A stretch of 64,000 nt of DNA from Branchiostoma floridae (lineage: Eukaryota; Chordata; Leptocardii; Amphioxiformes; Branchiostomatidae): contig NC_049993.1 of NCBI RefSeq assembly GCF_000003815.2, positions 12,823,189 through 12,887,188 of the forward strand, given 5' to 3'. The position numbers and the translations under genes are program-made. Below are positions 57 through 55,211 of this stretch, piece by piece; position 1 is the stretch's first letter; each line of letters starts with the position of its first letter. The notes beneath the pieces were generated by a model that searched no databases, had not been told where the DNA came from, and worked only from the letters and a program-made list of their open reading frames with translations.

Positions 57-3000
57 ATGTCTCATTCAGAAGACACATCCTTGGACAGCAACCAAAAATG
101 CCTATCCACAGTGATAGAGGAAGACGACACCAGTCAGGTAGGCGAGGAAGAACCCGTGTCCAGTCCGGAGGACGATTACTCGCAACAGGTAGCAATGCAG
201 CCAAGTAGCGGCCCCAGTAGTCAGGCGGTTAGGGTACAGATAGTGGGCACTCCTGATGACTCCTACTCTACGCTGTCTGGTACTTATGCAGAAGCGCAGA
301 CAGCCCAACCTAGTAAAGTCCCCTCTAGTCTGAAAGTTAGAACAGAAACAGAGGCCGGCCAGGAAGAATCGTACTCGACGATATCAGGAATCTATGATGA
401 CCCAGAAATTGTAGCGGTTAAGTCAGGTAATGCCCAGGTTAGTCTGACAGTTAGGACAGATACAGAGCCCGGTCCAGAAGACCATTACTCAACCGTGTCA
501 GGAATCTATAACGACCCAGAACCAGTGATACAGCCAGGTAACGCCCCTACCAGTTTAACAAAAGCAGCGGCTAGTCCAGAGGATTGTTACTCTACGATAT
601 CGGGTATCTACGAGGAGGCAGAAACCGTAGAAAAACAGCCGCATGACGACCAGCCTGGAAGAACAACTGAGCAAGAGCGGATTCGATCCCCAGAAGCATC
701 GTCTGATCGTGCCGATCCGCAGTTAGGTAAGTAGACTACAAATACGTTATGTTTTTCACATAGCTATATCAAATATCTATCTTTATCTATATATAATCTA
801 TCTGTCTCCATCTCTCTGTGTGCCCACCCCCCACCCCACCTCTATGCCAAGTATATAGACTTTACTAACCATCCTTTTGTGCACGTATAACACCCAAGAT
901 ATGTCATCAACGTACCCACTGTCGGGTTCCCACTACTAAGCTTACATCGATATCTTTTCACATTTCAAGTTCCAAATCCTTAACTTGCACAGCACATTGT
1001 GTACCCGAAACCTCTACTCACTATATATCTAATGCTTTGGGCACTTCGGAGGCACGATATTGCATTTGTTGGCATTTACGTATCTAAATGGTTCAAATGT
1101 GTTTACAGACAACGTAGGGGAGGAATCTCTCCTCTGCTTTTCCTCGAGGGCCTCGCTGGTTGGTGCTTTCATCACGGTATCAGTAGTTGCAGTAACATTA
1201 GCGGTAACGCTGGTTGGACTCCTCATTGGTGGACACATGGAAAACCGTCTTTTGGACCATCATACCGCACCGCCTCCTTGGGATAATGAGGTAAAAGAAT
1301 TTCGTTTGTTTCCTTTCTGTGTTCGTGTGACACATAGCTTTTAAGATTACTAGTATATGGTCAACTATCAGTATTCTGCCTGATACCCTATAGATGGCTA
1401 CATATACAATCTGCAATGAAGACCACGCTTACGCACTGCTTTTGAATGGGGAACACTTCTGCTAGAGACAATTTGCCTTTTGAAATCTCCATGCAGATCC
1501 TACGGTGTCAAAAGATAGTATCAAAGCTGGCTAAGGAATATGGCCGGCCAAAGGGAGTCAAACGGGCACCGGTAGCGAAACACGCTCCTTGGCCGGCTTC
1601 ACTCCTCTGTCAGCTTTTGATACTATCTTTTGCTACCGTAGGATCTGCTTGGAGATTAACCTTTTGCATAGGGGGCACCCTTCACCTTTGCATGGGGGCA
1701 CTAGCTTGCATCTATATATCTGCTTGGTGATTACTCAAGCTCCAAAACGCATGGCGCCCTACTTTGTTTAATCTCCTGCCATGATTGGTCTGTACCTATA
1801 TTGTCTGTAATTCCACCATCCGCATGATTTGTTCATTCAATGAATACATTAATTTGTTGGTAAGAATAAATGTGGGTTAAACTGTGGTCTGTTTCAGCCG
1901 ACAATCGTGCAAGGTATCCCGAGTGACCGCTCCTGGCAGGATACCTGGATTTCCACAATCAACACGACGACGGCAGCTGTACCTGGATCTGCTTGCAAGA
2001 CCGTGAGTACATCTGACTTATTCACACTTTCTTCGCTTTTCTTTAATTCATCTCCTCAACGAGAAGGCCGTGGCCTGGCTGCAGTACTGGCACGGAACGA
2101 TATGATGATGATCTCCTCAACAACAAGAGTTCGGAGACCTCATACCTCCATGAAATATTTTGATTATGCAAATGACTTTCACATCTGCATAATTTATGCT
2201 TGGTTATGTACACATACACAGGTCACAATGTTAACAATCCAATCATTTACTACATGCAATTGGATGAATTAGGACACTTTCACATTAATTATGCAAATTA
2301 GGAACTTATTTGCATAAGGCCACAGCAAGTGAATTTTATGGATGGGCGCATTAATTTTTGCCTAATTTCAGAAAAAAAACCCAAGAATTTTTGTCTTCTG
2401 CAGAGATGGTCAACATGACAATAATGTGTTGTAGCCTAATAATTGTAATTGTAGAAGTGACACTTGCGAGGTACCCAGGACTGTAGTTGTAGAAATGAAA
2501 CATAGATTGTTGTAAAAGTACACCAATATGGAAGCTATGAATGTGGTTACCAAGTTCATCACAACTTTATGGTGCCTATTTTTGAAAATGTAGCCATCTT
2601 GTTTTTTTTCTCACCCATCTTGATTTTTTTGGCCCTATCGCACTATTTTTGCAGTCTGCAGAGGATGTCATCCATAAAATTTACTTGCTGTGGCCTAACT
2701 GGTATCTGCTAATCTTCCACCTACCAGAAAGTACATTCCTATAATGGAAAACACATTTACAGAGAGTCCGAACTACATTTGAATAATCTGTCAAAGTATT
2801 TTGATTTTGAAATTGAAAGTGCTTTTTTTCTTCAGGCATCAATAAATGCATTGTCTACCCAAGGCAGAACCACAAACACGACATCGACATTGGAGCCTAC
2901 AAGTACAAGTACAAAAGTTACAGCTACCCATGAGGTCCTGTCCAAAGCAAACAACACTAAAGGTAAGGATACATCCATTCTAAATGGATCACAAGTTACA

Positions 3001-4009
3001 CTTGTCATTGAACGTACATGTGAATCAAGAAGAATCAGGGCTAGATATTTTATAAACCTGCTTTAAAGTGTTTTTAATGACAAATATTTGAGTTATCTTT
3101 TCGTCTCAGATTTTCAAATGGTTCACAGAGGTATCTTTTAGTAAGTGTGAATGATCTATATACGACACTAAAAGTTTGTCATTTGTTCCCACAGAGATGC
3201 CAGGAAAATACACTAGCCATCAGCACATCACGTTTGCTGTTGGTGGATCAGGGCAGAAAATGTTGCGTGGAATCGCCGTGTCGTCTGGAAACGAAATATT
3301 CGTGGCCGATTCGTACAAGAATAAGGTCCACATCCACAACATGGAGGGCGCGTACGTTCACCACTTCTCAACTCTTCTGCCTGGTCATCCTGATAGAGAG
3401 ATGATGCCGCAAGATGTGTCGGTTGACGGGAAGGACAACCTGTGGGTCATGGGGCGCATTTCGCTGCTTTGTTATCGAGTAGTGCAGTACAGCAGGGATG
3501 GCCAAGGACTGTTCATGTTGGAACCGCAGTGCGGCATGCGATTTGGCGGAATTGCGGTGGACCCTCGCAACAACAACATTGTCTTGAGGAGGCGAGACCG
3601 CAAGTTTGAAATCTGCATCTATCGCCCGGATGGCTCGTTTGTATGGAAGTTCGGAGAAGGGCTGTATGCACAAGCAAGCTTTGTTGCTGTCAACATAGAT
3701 GGAAGCATTCTTATGCCCAGTGACAACACGATACATGCCTATAACCAGACCGGGTCGGTTCTCTTTACTTTTGGTGACCATGGAAGCCATGGTGGGGGCT
3801 TGAGAGGCATCTGTACGGACAGTTCTGGCCACGTTATCATAGCGAACAGGAGAAACAGGCGGGTCACCGTGTTCACAAGCCGCGGGCTGTTTGTTCGCCA
3901 CGTTGACATTGGACTGAAAACAGTTGAGCGCGTTGCTGTGGGACCAGAAGGACACTTGGTAATCACGTATCAAAATGATGACACTATCACTGTCTTCACA
4001 TCATACTGA
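57..4009 (+). CDS. NHL-repeat type II membrane protein with cytoplasmic tyrosine array
   Basis: Exons 57-726, 1109-1290, 1898-2002, 2836-2962 and 3195-4009 join at GT-AG sites with matching phases to give 632 aa. Residues 1-223 are acidic and cytoplasmic by prediction, with four tyrosine pairs (Y70/77, Y106/113, Y144/151, Y178/185) in YST[ILV]SG[IT]Y motifs at a 34-38 residue period; several second tyrosines sit in YDDP or YNDP. Residues 240-263 form one TM helix. A Thr/Ser-rich stalk follows (about 285-361), then an NHL-type six-bladed propeller (about 362-632), closest in style to the TRIM2/3 NHL domain. There is no signal peptide, so topology should be N-in/C-out. I start at the ATG at 57 because the frame upstream has only a GTG; a further 5' exon left of the window cannot be excluded. 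The exact family and ligand are unknown. A poly(A) signal lies at 4336. Confidence 0.85.
1483..1659. repeat. MITE-like inverted repeat in intron 2 of the NHL gene
   Basis: Arms at about 1484-1528 and 1612-1657 are inverted copies (AATCTCCAWGCAGATCCTAC at the ends). They are flanked by CCTTTTG at 1476-1482 and 1660-1666, a probable 7-bp target-site duplication. The centre holds GGCCGGCC-type palindromic sequence. No ORF is credible. Confidence 0.75.
2317..2696. repeat. MITE with AGGCCACAGCAAGT termini
   Basis: The ends at 2317-2345 and 2668-2696 are inverted copies beginning AGGCCACAGCAAGTRAATTT. The element fills much of intron 3 of the NHL gene and is A/T-rich inside, with no ORF. I could not define a clear target-site duplication. 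Confidence 0.7.
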
Positions 4010-5562: not shown

Positions 5563-7880
5563 CTAGGACTTGGACACGGCAGCAGCGGCTGCGCCCCTCT
5601 TGCGTGGCTTGGGCGTAGTTCCTTCACGGAAACCATTGCTGCAGAGGAAACAGTCACATAACAACTTAATAAAAGCTCCAATTTTGTTGTTTTATATGTT
5701 ATGTAAAAAGATGAAGCCTTGGTTCACAAAATTAACTGCGTAAAGCTCTGAAGGCCACATTGGCAGCTTCCTGTCCAAGACTAAAATTGTACAGTGTACA
5801 AGTATGATGGAGGTATAATGTCTTTTCTGGAGTCTTATATGTACTTAGTTTGATGTCTATGTCACTTGTACCATGGATGAAGTGAAATCAACAAAATAAA
5901 CCTGTAGCAGTGTTGTTGTTAGAAGCATTGTACATCTCTAGAAAATAGTGTTCCAAGAGCACCATTGATGAAATCTTGGCTTTAACTTTAGCTGTGTTGG
6001 GGTGGCTGTTTCAGGTTTAGGTTTCTAACCAGAGTCTTTTCTACTTCAGTATACAGGTCTCCAACCCTATTGCTAGGAAAACTTGTACTTACTCGAATCT
6101 ACGCTGCACCTGCTTGAGATGACGCATCCTGCCAGTACCTGTCATCTTTCTCCTCTTGGCCTTCATGCTCCAGTTATCTACGAAGGAGAAATAATATTAC
6201 AAATATAGTTATTATACAGCACATGGCAGTCAAAATTTTGTTGTACTACCAATAGATCCCACACAAAATATGATCACAACATTAACAAATCTTCTATGTT
6301 GACAGAGAAATGGAAAACTATGACTAAGTTATGCACATGTTACAGAATATATAGAATCAGACAATCTTACTAGGACAGAAGATCATGCAAGAATGTTAAA
6401 TTCTGTCACTGGTTCCATTGATAGGATTGTGGAATGACGACAGGATAAGTAGCAAAATGGAGTATGCAGAAATATCACGCCAGTCGTGGGACTCATCAAC
6501 TAGTGATGGAACATTTTCACTACAAAACTGAGTTTGTTCAAAATGCACATGTCACGAGGTGTTGTGGTCAATACGGGGTCACCATTTTTTTTACAACATA
6601 GGGCACAGCGTGAGCTCTGGGTCTGTGCGTGTGAACAGAAAGCTGACTGACTACTTTGGCATATGTCATTGTCGCACAACCAGAAATTTTCCTTGTGTGA
6701 ACTGGCCCTACGTAACGATTACTGTTCATCAATAATTATTCAATTTTGCAAGTTTTGGGAGATTAAAGGTTTTTGCTTCTGTGTTTAAAGTTTGGGGTTG
6801 TTACAATATTGTAGCCAAAAAATACCTTGGCTATTTCCTATTCACAGTGTCATAATTTCACGGTAGAGGGGTACCACTACCAGGAAAATATAAGTTCCAC
6901 CATGAACATTTCAAGGCTTACTCTCATTTTTTATTTAACAACATAAAAAGTACTTACAGCTCCGCATCTTCTTGCTAGGGTAACCGCAGCCGGCACATCT
7001 CTTCTTCTGGATGTGGTAGGAGCTCTTACCACAACGTCTGCACAGAGAGTGCGTCTTCTGGTTCCGCTTTCCGAAGCTTGATGTTCCCTTCGTCTGTGGG
7101 GAGGGGGGGTGAGAACGAAGAGTTGTGAGGCCAGGGATATATAAGTACTGGCACAATGTTTCCGGATATACAATAAAAGGCTCTTTCAAGAAAGCTACAT
7201 GTAATGAATTAAATGGTGTCACTGTAATAATTTTTCTATGCACAACATTTTGGTTGCAGCATATGATATGTATTACTTCTCTATCATGTTTTGCAAATTT
7301 AGATCTTTAGGATATTTATAGCAAATTTAGATCTTTAGGATATTTTAGCTTATCATAAATTTCACTTCTTATTCACCAAAGACTTTTATGAGTCTTACTT
7401 TTCCTGACTATGCCAAAATATCATCACATAACACGACCTCTTCTTAGATTTTGGATCGTATGCTGACTGAGGTGTACCGGTTTATACGTACGAAGAGCCC
7501 CCACCCAAATAAATTCTTCACTATCTACTTTATTCTATGTGGGGTAAAAATTACGACAATAACTTTAACTACATAACCTGTAGCAGCTTAGAACACAGTA
7601 TACACTGGTAATAATGAATACTTAAGCGTCAAAATAAGTGTTTCTTACAAATCAGAAGTGTGTGTATGCGCATGTCTGCCTAGAATTGAGAAAAAGCAGC
7701 ATCCATCGACAGGATATTTTGACGAATATTCTCTCATATCGGCACGCTTAGGTGAAAATTTTTACGTTTAACACAACGCTAACTATCTAAGGAATAGGTC
7801 TGTGGTGACAAATTTTTCTCGATGGTTCCAAAAGCCTCGATTATGGCGGATTTAAAAAGGCATTTGGCCAAACTCACCAT
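5563..7880 (-). CDS. RPL37: 60S ribosomal protein L37 (eL37)
   Basis: Exons in transcript order are 7878-7880 (ATG only), 6958-7093, 6093-6177 and 5563-5638, giving 99 aa, close to the vertebrate 97. The protein opens [11 protein letters not shown] and carries the zinc-ribbon cysteine pairs CRRCG and CAGCG. The basic middle [10 protein letters not shown] and the tail [14 protein letters not shown] match eL37, a component of the large ribosomal subunit. A first coding exon holding only the ATG fits what I recall of vertebrate RPL37. The residue spanning the last junction reads Asp (RRFDNGFREG), where human has Arg. The gene is head-to-head with FBXO4. I found no convincing box C/D snoRNA in its introns. 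Confidence 0.97.
7293..7346 (+). repeat. 28-bp tandem duplication in RPL37 intron 1
   Basis: GCAAATTTAGATCTTTAGGA is repeated at a 28-bp interval (7293 and 7321). Confidence 0.9.
7843..7849 (+). promoter_or_regulatory. YY1-like ATGGCGG site near the RPL37 start
   Basis: ATGGCGG in the start of RPL37 intron 1, about 30 bp from the ATG. YY1-type motifs just downstream of the start site are common in ribosomal protein genes; function here is inferred. Confidence 0.4.
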
Positions 7881-14957: not shown

Positions 14958-32598
<17,641 letters not shown>

Positions 32599-51190: not shown

Positions 51191-52162
51191 TCAACATAGT
51201 CCTCCAGCAAACTCATCCTCCTCCTCTCCTCCTCCATCCTCCTGGTTCTCTAACTGTCCCTTCTCCATCCCTTCTTCAATCCCCTCGTCTAATAACTCCG
51301 CCTTCTTTTTCTTCCCCCCTTCCCCACCCCCTGGGGCCTGCAGACCGCGGGCCAACTTGGCATAGTCATTGTCCATGAACTTGAACATCGGTCTCGCTGC
51401 GACGGACGAAAGACGCTCCTGATCGTTCTCGTCATACGCATCCAACAACTCTGCCAACTCCCGGCAGTGATCGCTTTCTGTGAACCCCGGTATGCCGTAG
51501 GCATCCTTGTATGCTTTCTCGGCTGCGACAAAGTCACCTCTAGCAAGCTGACACAGTACCAACTCTACAGTCACCCTGCTCACTTCTGGTCCATTTTCGC
51601 CTTCAATCTGGAACTTCTTCTCGACCTTCAGGACTTCAACTGCTCTGTCGTAGTTCCCCATTCTTACAAGAAGCTTTGCAGCTTTCTTCTGGAAGTCGGC
51701 TGCTTGTCTGGGTCTGTCTTCACACTCAGTTATATCACTGCCTATCAGGTAGTACTCCACTGATTTCTGTGGGTTGGTAGGCTCTAGTAGCTTGGCCACT
51801 CTATCAAATGTAGAAGCTGCGGTGTCTGGTACCCCATGCTCTCTGTAGAGGTGCCCTGCTTTCTCAATCAGCTGGGCAGCTCGGTTTAAGTCGTTTAACT
51901 CCTTGCACATCATACCTGCCTGTTCGTAGGCTTTCCCTGCATGGAACATGACGTTGTTTTGGACGTTGCACTCTGCCGCTTTTAGGAACGCTTGCCTGGC
52001 CTGGTCGTAGGACTTAGCCGTCTTGAAACATGTACCTGCTTTGGTGTAAGCAGACGCTGCACCGTCGTAGTCGGCCTTCCACTTGAAGAAGGACGTTTTC
52101 ATGCATTTTTCGGCTTCTTTTAGGTGCTCTAGTCCCTCAGCTACACGTCGGTCGGCAGCCAT
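51191..52162 (-). CDS. NAPG: Gamma-soluble NSF attachment protein (single exon)
   Basis: One uninterrupted frame of 323 aa from the ATG at 52160-52162 (human 312). The frame extends further upstream only with non-ATG codons. The protein is an alpha-helical TPR-like SNAP: RRVAEGLEHLKEAEK, then GKAYEQAGMMCKE, LIEKAGHLYREHGVPDTAA, FKFMDNDYAKL and the family's C-terminus DEFAGGLC. SNAPs recruit the ATPase NSF to SNARE complexes for disassembly after membrane fusion. Vertebrate NAPG has many introns, so the intronless form suggests a retrocopy that replaced the parent or lineage-specific intron loss. No frameshifts or premature stops are seen, so it is probably functional. Divergent from TSEN34. 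Confidence 0.93.
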   Translation of the reverse strand: MAADRRVAEGLEHLKEAEKCMKTSFFKWKADYDGAASAYTKAGTCFKTAKSYDQARQAFLKAAECNVQNNVMFHAGKAYEQAGMMCKELNDLNRAAQLIEKAGHLYREHGVPDTAASTFDRVAKLLEPTNPQKSVEYYLIGSDITECEDRPRQAADFQKKAAKLLVRMGNYDRAVEVLKVEKKFQIEGENGPEVSRVTVELVLCQLARGDFVAAEKAYKDAYGIPGFTESDHCRELAELLDAYDENDQERLSSVAARPMFKFMDNDYAKLARGLQAPGGGEGGKKKKAELLDEGIEEGMEKGQLENQEDGGGEEEDEFAGGLC

Positions 52163-52719
52163 GATGAAACTGGCCACATCATTAAAATTTCTTATTACGC
52201 GAAGAAAGAAGTTCCCCAACCCATAATCTCAGGCTATCTTTGCCCTAAAAAGTGCTGTTTTAACACAGAATACCATGGATGATTCTATATATACATAATA
52301 TAAAATGTCATGTTCTAACTTTATGCTATCGAGGCTTTTACTTGTCCCAAAAAAAAAGCAAAAGCGCGGAGAAATATCAAACCAGGCAGTGATGTGCCCA
52401 TCGACCTTCCCAAAATGTCAACAATACATTTCTAACAATTTTAATAAAATACAACATGACGATACAATATCTTGGCTCAAACTATTAACAAATACATAAT
52501 TTCTCACCAAATATTAGGGTCTTTCCAGATATACGATTGCTTTTGTCTCGCAACTTTTCGTTTCATCAATTAACCCCCTATGTTTATGAATGTAATATTC
52601 CAGTAAACTTTGACCTTCCAGCACATGCAATCACATCTGCAACTTCTGTCAACACACATCGGAAAAATCAAAATATTCTGTGGTCTATAAGATTTTCTGT
52701 AGACTCGTAACTAACTAGA
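52163..52719. promoter_or_regulatory. Bidirectional promoter region NAPG/TSEN34
   Basis: 557 bp between the divergent start codons, mostly A/T-rich, with one GCGCGGAGAAA patch near 52363. No motif decides the start sites. Confidence 0.4.
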
Positions 52720-55211
52720 ATGATAGACCTGTACCTGTGTCACGGCCACGTGTACGTCTGGAACGCTACAGACGCCTGTGACCTGCGGGAACATCACAGA
52801 ATCGTCGGGACGTTTGTGGGCGCTCTTCCACGCTTGCCCCGACAGAACGTCCGACTAGGACGGCCTCTACAGCTCATGCCTGAGGAAACCACAGTACTGC
52901 TGAATAAAGGCATTGCCAGGTATGCTACAAGTAAATGAACTGAAAAATCCACCACTAGTCGAATTTTTTTTCTATTTTTGCAAAAGTTTTGTTTGATGGT
53001 CAAGAAGAATGGTAATCTCCAAGCAGATGTTGGGATGGCACTTGTCACTGATCCCAGTACTAAAGTTCTAGTTCGCGGTGGTTTTAAGTTCGCGATAGCA
53101 CCATGCACTATAGTCTCTTACTGCCATAGAAAAATATTTGCTGTGGTTTCAAGTTTGTGATGAAGTCGCCACCACGAAAACGGCGAACATTAGAGCACGG
53201 TGAAAGTTTCTGTATTTACAGTAAGTCAGTAACATTACTATGATACTAGTACATTGTAGTGTAACACTAAAATGGGAAATTTTACTAAGTGCCACTTGTA
53301 CGCCAGGTAGGAATGGAATATGGCAATGGACGACATTTATTTACAATTAACCCTTAAACTGCCAGAGTTTCAGCCCTATAAAATGCTATCAGTGTAAGGG
53401 TTTTAAATGCCGCTGACCTCCCGAAAGAAACAAGGCCGAAGTCCCTAACTTCCAGGGTTCGTGCGCTACACGCGCGCAAAGCTGCTACTTTGGGGGAATA
53501 TGCTATCCCAGATATATCCGGGCACGGCACACAGGACATGTATATGTTTCTTTATTTCTTTATTTCTTTATTTGAATTTACCACATGCAAAAACAAGTGG
53601 AAGGGAGGACAAAACAGGTGTATCAACACCTTTACAAGTTGTCCTCCCAAACCTGAAATGATAATAGAAAACAATACGAAACCAAAATCAAACAATAAAC
53701 ATTAGACATCAAAAGTCAGTAGACATGAAAATACAATTCGGCGACAATTATACACAGAACCGATTATATACAAAATCATCAAATATCATTATATACAGAG
53801 TAAAAAACTAATTACAATACTAATGTAGCCTTAAAGCAGTGCAAGAGGCACACCCACAAGATGAGGACCAAGAGCAGGGGACGTCGATATTGAACTGGGT
53901 GTCAAATCTCACAAACGTGGCTCTCACAAGCGATCGCTTGAATGTCAAGATGTTGGACTTTTCAGTGGCTTGAACCCCATTATGTGTGCCAGATATATCC
54001 GGGTTTGGCAGTTTAAGGGTTAAAACGTTAGTACCAATATAGCCTTCACTTTTGACCTTATGCATGTGTACACTGGCTTATAGCAATGACTTATTTTCCC
54101 AGGTTGCTCGATGGCAACATCCCTCCAAAGACTGGTGAAGATGTTTCCCAAGCTATAACAGAACACAGACAGCAGAGTTTCAGGGAACAAGCCGAGATGT
54201 GTAAGAGCGACAGGAAGAGGAAACTACACGAAATGGCCAGCGTCATCGCCAAAGGACGAGCAGCTAAGAGAAAAAAGCTTGCACAGAAGGCAAAGGAAGA
54301 AAGTTCAAGTTCAGTGTCTACAAGTGATGTCTCAAGTTCAACTTGTGATCAGCCAGAAGATGAGGAGCCAAGCTTGTCTGTGGAGGAGATGAAAGAGTTA
54401 GAGGCTAAGCTTGAAGAGACTACAGGTTACAATGAACAGGCCTTTCTGGTGCAGATTCTGACAGGTAAAACGTTTAGTGACTCCATGGTCACTATGAAAT
54501 AGTCTTAACTTAATGTCGATGTTGTGGATCACATCTTTGCTACCTCATACAGGCTTTTATACGATAAAACCTGACATCCCCATAGTTAAGTAGGATTTGT
54601 GATTAATGGTACAACACAAGTAAGAACTGGATTTAAAGTTTTGACTGTTAAACACATCTTTGTCAAGAATGATCTAATCCGTTGCTTCTATTACTTAATG
54701 TTATAGTAACTAATATGCAAATAGGATATGTGGCTCAGTAAGCAGTGGATTAAATGTTGAAGATAGTCTTTGGCATCCAACATCATTGGATGACTTTTGA
54801 GCCTTGAAAATGAGTTATATTCTGTTCAAGCTTACCTGTAACTTGTTTTCCTTCGTTCTACCTACAGAACAAGTTTCAGAAGAAACTCAAGACGCCATTC
54901 CCTGGAAGTACCCAAACACAGACAAAGAGACACTGAGATGCAACGTTTTCCAAGACCTTTGGGAGAAGGGCTACTTTCTGACCAGTGGTGGGAAATTTGG
55001 TGGGGACTTCCTGGTGTACCCCGGGGATCCTTTCCGGTACCACTCCTTCTACATCGCTGTTTGTCAGCAGAGAACTGAGAAAATGGAGGCCTTGGATATA
55101 GTGAGGTTGGGAAGACTGGGATCCAACGTGAAGAAAACTGTGTTGTTGTGCTCAGAGAGCGAGACCGGAGAGATCAACTACACATCACTACAATGGACAG
55201 GGATGAACTGA
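52720..55211 (+). CDS. TSEN34: tRNA-splicing endonuclease subunit Sen34
   Basis: Exons 52720-52919, 54103-54464 and 54868-55211 join in phase to 301 aa (human 310). The N-terminal domain reads VGALPRLPRQNVRLGRPLQL and LMPEE. A long charged linker follows (RKRKLHEMASVIAKGRAAKR, then Ser/Glu-rich). The C-terminal nuclease domain has KFGGDFLVYPGDPFRYHSFY and NVKKTVLLCSE. The catalytic triad inferred from human Y247/H255/K286 is Y238, H246 and K277, all present. Sen34 cleaves the 3' splice site of intron-containing pre-tRNAs within the TSEN complex. The first intron carries two transposable elements. ATTAAA at 55407-55412 may be the poly(A) signal. Confidence 0.96.
53056..53223. repeat. Copy of the TTCGCGGTGG / TACTGTAAAT element
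   Basis: Diverged copy of 48313-48524. It shares GTTCGCGGTGGTTTTAAGTT, ATAGCACCATGCACT and the end ATTTACAGTA. Located in TSEN34 intron 1. Confidence 0.7.
53351..54019. repeat. piggyBac-like non-autonomous element
   Basis: Ends CCCTTAAACTGCCA and TGGCAGTTTAAGGG, flanked by TTAA at 53347-53350 and 54020-54023. The subterminal box CCAGATATATCCGG is also inverted between the two ends. The interior (about 53537-53650) carries a TTTCTTTATTTCTTTATTT run plus a GGAGGACAA..TTGTCCTCC hairpin, which looks like a LINE 3' tail inserted in reverse. Confidence 0.85.

Follow-up and report, generated by a model that had tools for sequence, protein, structure and literature searches.

Can an NHL propeller serve as the outer domain of a receptor that carries its tyrosine motifs in a cytoplasmic tail? 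This question is raised by positions 57 to 4009 of a 64,000-nucleotide stretch of the Branchiostoma floridae genome (C15:12823189-12887188, called the window in the following), for which a first-pass annotation had proposed a single gene with a tyrosine array, a transmembrane (TM) segment, a stalk and an NHL propeller. According to the present analysis, the gene rather likely codes for a single-pass receptor of type II topology, with an NHL propeller as ectodomain and a tail of tyrosine pairs that docks SH2 proteins, and it is one of a family of 12 loci. The gene structure, the family, the domain order and the conserved tyrosine pairs can be read directly from the DNA. Searches of the lancelet's own genome covered the assembly of 513,431,437 bases.

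Gene structure and domain order

As far as DNA can tell, positions 57-4009 of the window hold one full five-exon gene. The spliced model is open over 632 codons without a stop, all exon borders are GT-AG, and the phases are 0/1/0/0/1. The reading frame of the ATG at position 57 opens downstream of a stop at 6-8. Relative to all GT and AG sites of the window, and using an approximate consensus, the splice donors lie at percentiles 95.4-99.8 and the acceptors at percentiles 83.5-100. The sole methionine in exons 2-4 is Met267, located after the TM helix; for this reason these exons need an upstream start, which is offered by exon 1. From the N- to the C-terminus, the protein consists of a tail with four tyrosine pairs, one TM helix, a Ser/Thr-rich stalk and the NHL propeller (Table 1).

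The tyrosine tail

The tail contains the four copies of YST[ILV]SG[IT]Y and the additional Y41 that had been described in the first-pass annotation. The copies have a spacing of 34-38 residues, and none of 20,000 shuffled tails yielded a single copy. Three of the four copies are covered by a 74-nt DNA repeat. In the six pairwise comparisons of the repeats, the eight core codons have 0.41-0.89 synonymous differences per synonymous site (Sd/S) and 0-0.14 nonsynonymous differences per nonsynonymous site (Nd/N), whereas Nd/N of the flanks is 0.27-0.59, each comparison comprising few sites. Since the core is synonymously diverged yet nearly fixed at the protein level, unlike its flanks, the motif has probably been held by selection since the copies arose.

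The pattern of the immunoreceptor tyrosine-based activation motif (ITAM), YxxL/I-x6-12-YxxL/I, has no match in the 632 amino acids, and the Pfam scan returned no ITAM family, in line with the earlier remark that the pair spacing is not canonical. The pattern of the corresponding inhibition motif (ITIM), [SIVL]xYxx[ILV], is absent from the tail as well; its single match, at residue 453, is located in the propeller. Both the ITAM and the ITIM reading were therefore rejected. The first tyrosine of all four pairs fits [DE][DE]xYxx[ILV], and the tail includes YSTV and YDDP sites. A search against the PDB revealed no solved relative of the tail, only three chance matches (E-values 0.36-0.39).

A family of twelve tail loci

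The tail, used as query against the genome, matched 24 times, at its own place and at 11 others, and a reciprocal search with the tail of another member recovered the identical 12 places. Each of the 11 other tail loci has, on the strand of the tail, a downstream NHL exon that shares 38-84% identity with the one of the window gene; between tail and NHL exon, a TM exon was located at 10 of these loci. At the remaining locus, C158a, no TM exon was found in a stretch that holds 1,058 unknown bases. C158a and C158b, whose tails are identical and whose NHL exons are 95% identical, may be alleles of one gene. The closest paralogue, on C6, keeps the five exons and their phases over 683 open codons. 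In a tree of the NHL exons, three groups are formed by the window gene and C6, by two loci on C19, and by eight loci on C12, C7, C158, C8 and C9. A search with the NHL sequence recovered 9 of the 11 paralogues, the two C19 loci being outside its scored matches. Thus, the claims that tail, TM segment, stalk and propeller belong to one gene and that this gene is part of an expanded family are both supported.

The 12 tails were scanned for motif units, defined by at least four of the six core letters plus tyrosine; this rule biases the core letters, not the neighbouring positions, and five units are duplicated via C158a and C158b. In total, 70 units were found, 4 to 11 per gene, of which 63 have both tyrosines. 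D or E is present at position -3 relative to the first tyrosine in 65 units, at -2 in 58 and at +9 in 67, and V is present at +13 in 64. At +3, P (31), T (11), V (10), I (6), A (6), L (3), S (2) and R (1) occur, so that I, L or V is found in just 19 of the 70 units. The second tyrosine is followed by E (45) or K (16), then by E or D, and then by A (35), P (25) or G (9). The family rule is an acid-framed tyrosine pair with a spacing of seven, in which YxxP is commoner than YxxI/L/V. What the family keeps is the Y-x6-Y pair in its acidic setting, rather than the YxxI/L/V site that was earlier suggested to suit SH2 docking.

Membrane segment and topology

The top 15 hydropathy windows of 19 residues coincide at one place, with the best (2.62) at residues 245-263, and by hydropathy no hydrophobic stretch N-terminal of the TM helix is among the best windows. 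The stalk that follows (residues 265-361) has 30 Ser or Thr among 97 residues, 25 of them within the 61 residues from 301 to 361, and is probably O- and N-glycosylated.

The charges next to the TM helix, summed over 10 of the 12 family genes (C19a and C158a left out), amount to 40 K/R and 15 D/E on the N side and to 14 and 23 on the C side; a basic N side and an acidic C side favour an N-terminus inside the cell. In blade 4 of the propeller, an N-glycosylation sequon of the form YNxTG, with Q, E, L or G as x, is present in 10 of the 12 family genes. It was also found in three of the five scorable TM-type NHL proteins from outside the family (L045 and L048-L051; L044, L046 and L047 are incomplete), and in none of seven TRIM-like or other NHL proteins of the same genome (L001, L002, L004-L008; L003 was dropped as it is the L001 gene), the latter count being judged by sequon position without alignment and from partly incomplete sequences. 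As the NHL proteins compared are related, these counts are not independent. Taken together, the flank charges of the family and the conserved propeller sequon support a predicted type II topology with the propeller outside, and the single TM segment and exposed propeller of the first-pass annotation are to this extent borne out at the sequence level.

The NHL propeller

NHL repeats are recognised by Pfam (PF01436) with an E-value of 2e-11 and 43.7 bits against a gathering score of 20, and the scan of the 632 amino acids returned propeller families only. Solved relatives in the PDB include TRIM3, thin, TRIM2, TRIM71 and brat. In a single-sequence AlphaFold model, 24 strands make up six four-stranded blades, with a predicted local distance difference test score (pLDDT) of 64.6 and a predicted template modelling score (pTM) of 0.69; it is the best of five models, the other four reaching 34.6-48.3. 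The fold is assigned from sequence similarity and this single-sequence model. No relatives were found in viral_contigs.

Compared with its closest paralogue, the NHL exon has a ratio of nonsynonymous to synonymous substitution rates (dN/dS) of 0.25; seven other pairs yielded values of 0.36-0.60. Some windows of 25 codons have a proportion of nonsynonymous differences at or above that of synonymous ones, in all four pairs in which windows were slid. The pair C158a/C158b has a dN/dS above 1, which is uninformative due to only 12 changes between what are perhaps alleles. Positive selection of the propeller, which the first-pass annotation had proposed to look for, was rejected, the NHL exon being mainly under purifying selection.

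The wider class of NHL loci

NHL domains are very common in the lancelet genome, where all counts are lower bounds taken from the best-scoring candidates. There are at least 150 NHL matches (the best 150 of 1,675 candidates were scored and all match) and at least 143 matches to the window propeller (best 142 of 691 candidates scored), among which the NHL open frame spans 261-345 amino acids in at least 60 or so, counted by hand. Eight loci outside the tail family were opened: L044-L047, from the general NHL matches, chosen by frame length, and L048-L051, from the matches to the window propeller, chosen by length and closeness to the window NHL. The choice ignored the upstream content. As the loci group into roughly three subfamilies, they do not count as independent cases.

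In all eight, an open reading frame (ORF) with tyrosines is followed on one strand by a TM candidate and then by the NHL exon. In six of them the TM sequence is conserved between loci (L044/L047 79%, L049/L050 86% and L048/L051 69% identical); for L045 and L046, the TM candidate was identified by hydropathy only. As a control, 300 random window stretches each of 2.5, 3.5 and 5 kb, judged by the same thresholds, gave 65-70, 92-95 and 138-148 TM candidates, respectively. The best 30-residue window between TM candidate and NHL exon contains 37-70% Ser/Thr, exon borders not having been worked out at these loci.

Three kinds of tail occur in the eight loci, all other than that of the window gene: VYENDDD arrays in L048-L051, with YxN at 34 of 47 tyrosines; HVYDNE/HIYEND plus RPLPSIP in L045; and, in part, NPMYxQS or NPIY together with QPYAVxYQ in L044, L046 and L047. 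YxN suits the SH2 domain of Grb2, RPLPxxP suits SH3 domains and NPxY suits PTB domains. The 12-locus family thus appears to be one part of a broader set of NHL receptors of type II, in which tyrosine tails are interchangeable. A more far-reaching and tentative idea, to which we give slightly less than an even chance, is that the lancelet NHL propeller defines a large diversifying class of surface receptors, with tens of genes, forming a recognition and signalling system that would be a counterpart of the Ig, lectin and LRR (leucine-rich repeat) receptors in other chordates; its interchangeable multivalent phosphotyrosine tails would comprise Y-x6-Y pairs, Grb2-suited YxN arrays, NPxY-like and SH3-ligand kinds.

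Other NHL genes were seen in passing. A cluster at C17:18.3-18.97 Mb holds several tens of NHL genes, most of them single ORFs of about 530-620 amino acids; in L006, the one that was read, the N-terminal region is not of the TRIM type and looks coiled-coil, and no TM segment is seen by eye. A single ORF at C15:20700238 (L007) contains, by eye, a RING, a B-box, a TM-like hydrophobic stretch and an NHL domain without the blade-4 sequon, and is a possible membrane TRIM-NHL protein.

Proposed function and alternative explanations

In the proposed mechanism, the propeller on its probably glycosylated stalk would bind a surface or soluble ligand, which would cluster the receptor. A Src-family kinase may then phosphorylate the paired tyrosines of Y-S-T-x-S-G-x-Y, repeated 4-11 times per family tail, and the phosphotyrosines would dock several SH2 proteins at once. 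These steps are plausible because in the amphioxus receptor BbLcLRR the sites DDYATV, HDYSEV and HDYDDP are phosphorylated by Lck, BbLcLRR binding SHIP1 and, less so, SHP1/2 in stimulated Jurkat cells (PMC8211107), and because amphioxus Grb2 takes part in phagocytosis (PMC10199209).

Several observations weigh against this proposal. The gene is read here at the DNA level, and its transcript, protein, localisation and phosphorylation are predictions. Taken by itself, the window gene lacks a clear positive-inside balance in the 15 residues on either side of the TM helix (N side 1 K/R and 3 D/E, C side 1 K/R and 2-3 D/E), and since 22-49% of random stretches contain a TM candidate, such a candidate carries little weight when seen at one locus. 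In C158a, the NHL match is split into two pieces 3.5 kb apart, and C12b (C12:4816735-4817280, + strand) carries a TGA in its first listed tail unit; it may be a pseudogene, have a later start or reflect an assembly error. The +3 residue, which normally sets the choice of SH2 domain, varies across the units, and the invariant S-T-x-S-G might just as well serve a Ser/Thr kinase.

One alternative is an inhibitory receptor of the BbLcLRR kind, in which YxxV and YDDP, once phosphorylated, would attract the phosphatases SHIP1 or SHP, so that signalling is dampened. EDHYSTV and GIYDDP of the window gene do resemble the BbLcLRR sites (PMC8211107), but given the lack of an ITIM pattern in the tail and the rarity of I, L or V at +3, this is considered rather unlikely. 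The +3 residue also bears on an activating receptor similar to those with a hemi-ITAM (hemITAM), in which acidic residues followed by YxxL/I/V on the N-terminal tail of a type II protein would recruit Syk, as they do in Dectin-1 and CLEC-2. All first tyrosines of the window gene fit such a site; in the paralogues +3 is mostly P or T, and apart from the window gene the fit extends to a minority of the units. As a family-wide rule the hemITAM was rejected on this residue, and the explanation as such is judged unlikely.

A similarly low probability is assigned to a teneurin-like adhesion protein, whose propeller would make homophilic or heterophilic contacts while the tail anchors cytoskeletal adaptors. 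The predicted layout agrees with that of teneurins, type II proteins with an exposed NHL domain that sets homophilic specificity (PMC5851990). On the other hand, no teneurin is among the 42 PDB sequences found at E-values up to 10, no EGF or YD family was found by the Pfam scan at E-values up to 1, and the word tyrosine is absent from the main text of a paper on teneurins (PMC6428715); an adhesive role as such may still apply. By far the least probable is an artefact of the gene model, in which tail and NHL exons stem from different genes or a cytosolic NHL protein starts at Met363. False fusions are documented in lancelet gene predictions (PMC4967905) and exon 5 opens with Met363. Against this, the order is common to all 12 loci, the C6 paralogue keeps exons and phases, Met267 as the only methionine of exons 2-4 lies beyond the TM helix, and the propeller sequon is conserved.

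The proposed SH2-docking type II receptor is preferred. The label of an immune-type receptor is not supported, there being no direct evidence for it here. No lancelet NHL receptor was found among the papers listed from a single open-access library, whose silence does not prove absence from print, and the lancelet family is apparently an undescribed group of signalling receptors. If the gene signals as its anatomy suggests, the NHL propeller would join the folds used by multigene receptor families of chordates, and one receptor class would be trying several tyrosine-motif grammars behind a shared ectodomain. The evolution of phosphotyrosine tails would then be testable inside one gene family of a basal chordate, for which Lck and Grb2 homologues are already described (PMC8211107, PMC10199209).

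Features of the gene and genomic neighbours

Table 1. Features of the receptor gene, in window coordinates.
Feature	Position	Strand	Basis
Exon 1: cytoplasmic tail, residues 1-223, acidic, S/T/P-rich	57..726	+	Spliced model; paralogous tails at 11 other places
Tyr pair 1, YSTLSGTY, Y70/Y77	264..287	+	Translation, motif scan
Tyr pair 2, YSTISGIY, Y106/Y113, then DDP	372..395	+	Translation, motif scan
Tyr pair 3, YSTVSGIY, Y144/Y151, then NDP	486..509	+	Translation, motif scan
Tyr pair 4, YSTISGIY, Y178/Y185, then EEA	588..611	+	Translation, motif scan
Exon 2: juxtamembrane and TM segment	1109..1290	+	Spliced model; C6 paralogue exon 68% identical
TM helix, about residues 240-264	1156..1230	+	Hydropathy peak 2.62
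Exon 3: stalk, N-glycosylation sequon NTT306	1898..2002	+	Spliced model
Exon 4: Thr/Ser-rich stalk, sequons at 333 and 358	2836..2962	+	Spliced model, composition
Exon 5: six-bladed NHL propeller and stop codon	3195..4009	+	Pfam PF01436, PDB relatives, AlphaFold model
Sequon N545-Q-T, propeller blade 4	3743..3751	+	NxT kept in 10 of 12 family members

Intron 2 contains an inverted repeat (window 1484-1657) with 42-nt arms, 93% complementary and 90 nt apart, similar to a miniature inverted-repeat transposable element. Directly upstream of the window (L043, C15:12813300-12823200), intelectin-like exons were seen twice, one of them (L043 5936-6364) matching intelectin-1 of the PDB with an E-value of 1e-41. 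An ORF at L043:4281-4616 has a short basic N-terminus, a TM-like segment and a coiled-coil look, and perhaps type II intelectins lie beside the receptor gene. Within the window, kinase and fn3 matches at 17677-26401 (- strand), with a TM-like ORF at 19628-20005, may be pieces of one receptor tyrosine kinase, and an ORF at 27316-28221 (+) has about 11 PAEEQ repeats. Ordinary neighbours are matches to ribosomal L37e (6935-7306, -), SNAP (51191-52228, -) and tRNA intron endonuclease (54801-55211, +).

Comparison with known systems

TRIM2, TRIM3, TRIM71, thin and brat are among the nearest solved NHL sequences. Membership in the TRIM-NHL proteins was rejected, as the Pfam scan recognised no RING or B-box in the window gene, which differs further by the TM segment and stalk preceding its NHL domain and by its glycosylation sequon. 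In the 9.9 kb upstream, no RING or B-box was recognised among 14 ORFs of at least 100 amino acids, four of which were scanned with Pfam.

The NHL propeller had been described beforehand as normally a cytosolic or secreted-enzyme module; this does not hold for teneurins, which are receptors of type II and expose an NHL propeller with six blades (PMC5851990, PMC6428715). The predicted topology of the window gene, single-pass type II with the propeller outside the cell, would match theirs. In contrast to teneurins, it has no FN-plug, EGF domains or YD shell detectable in the Pfam scan, its NHL domain is closest to the TRIM type, and its 632 amino acids include a repeated tyrosine tail. Domains and sequence argue against counting the gene among the teneurins. 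Amphioxus BbLcLRR resembles it in a tyrosine tail with YxxV and YDDP sites, in BbLcLRR phosphorylated by Lck, and differs in its LRR ectodomain and C-terminal tail, for which the excerpted text describes no repeated pairs (PMC8211107). The predicted type II layout is also that of Dectin-1 and CLEC-2, which carry a hemITAM on the N-terminal tail, that of Dectin-1 following a tri-acidic sequence; they have a C-type lectin ectodomain and a single motif, whereas in the lancelet family the hydrophobic residue at +3 is not conserved. As teneurins show, an NHL propeller on a type II receptor has a precedent, and the window gene would be a tyrosine-tailed type II receptor whose ectodomain is an NHL propeller.

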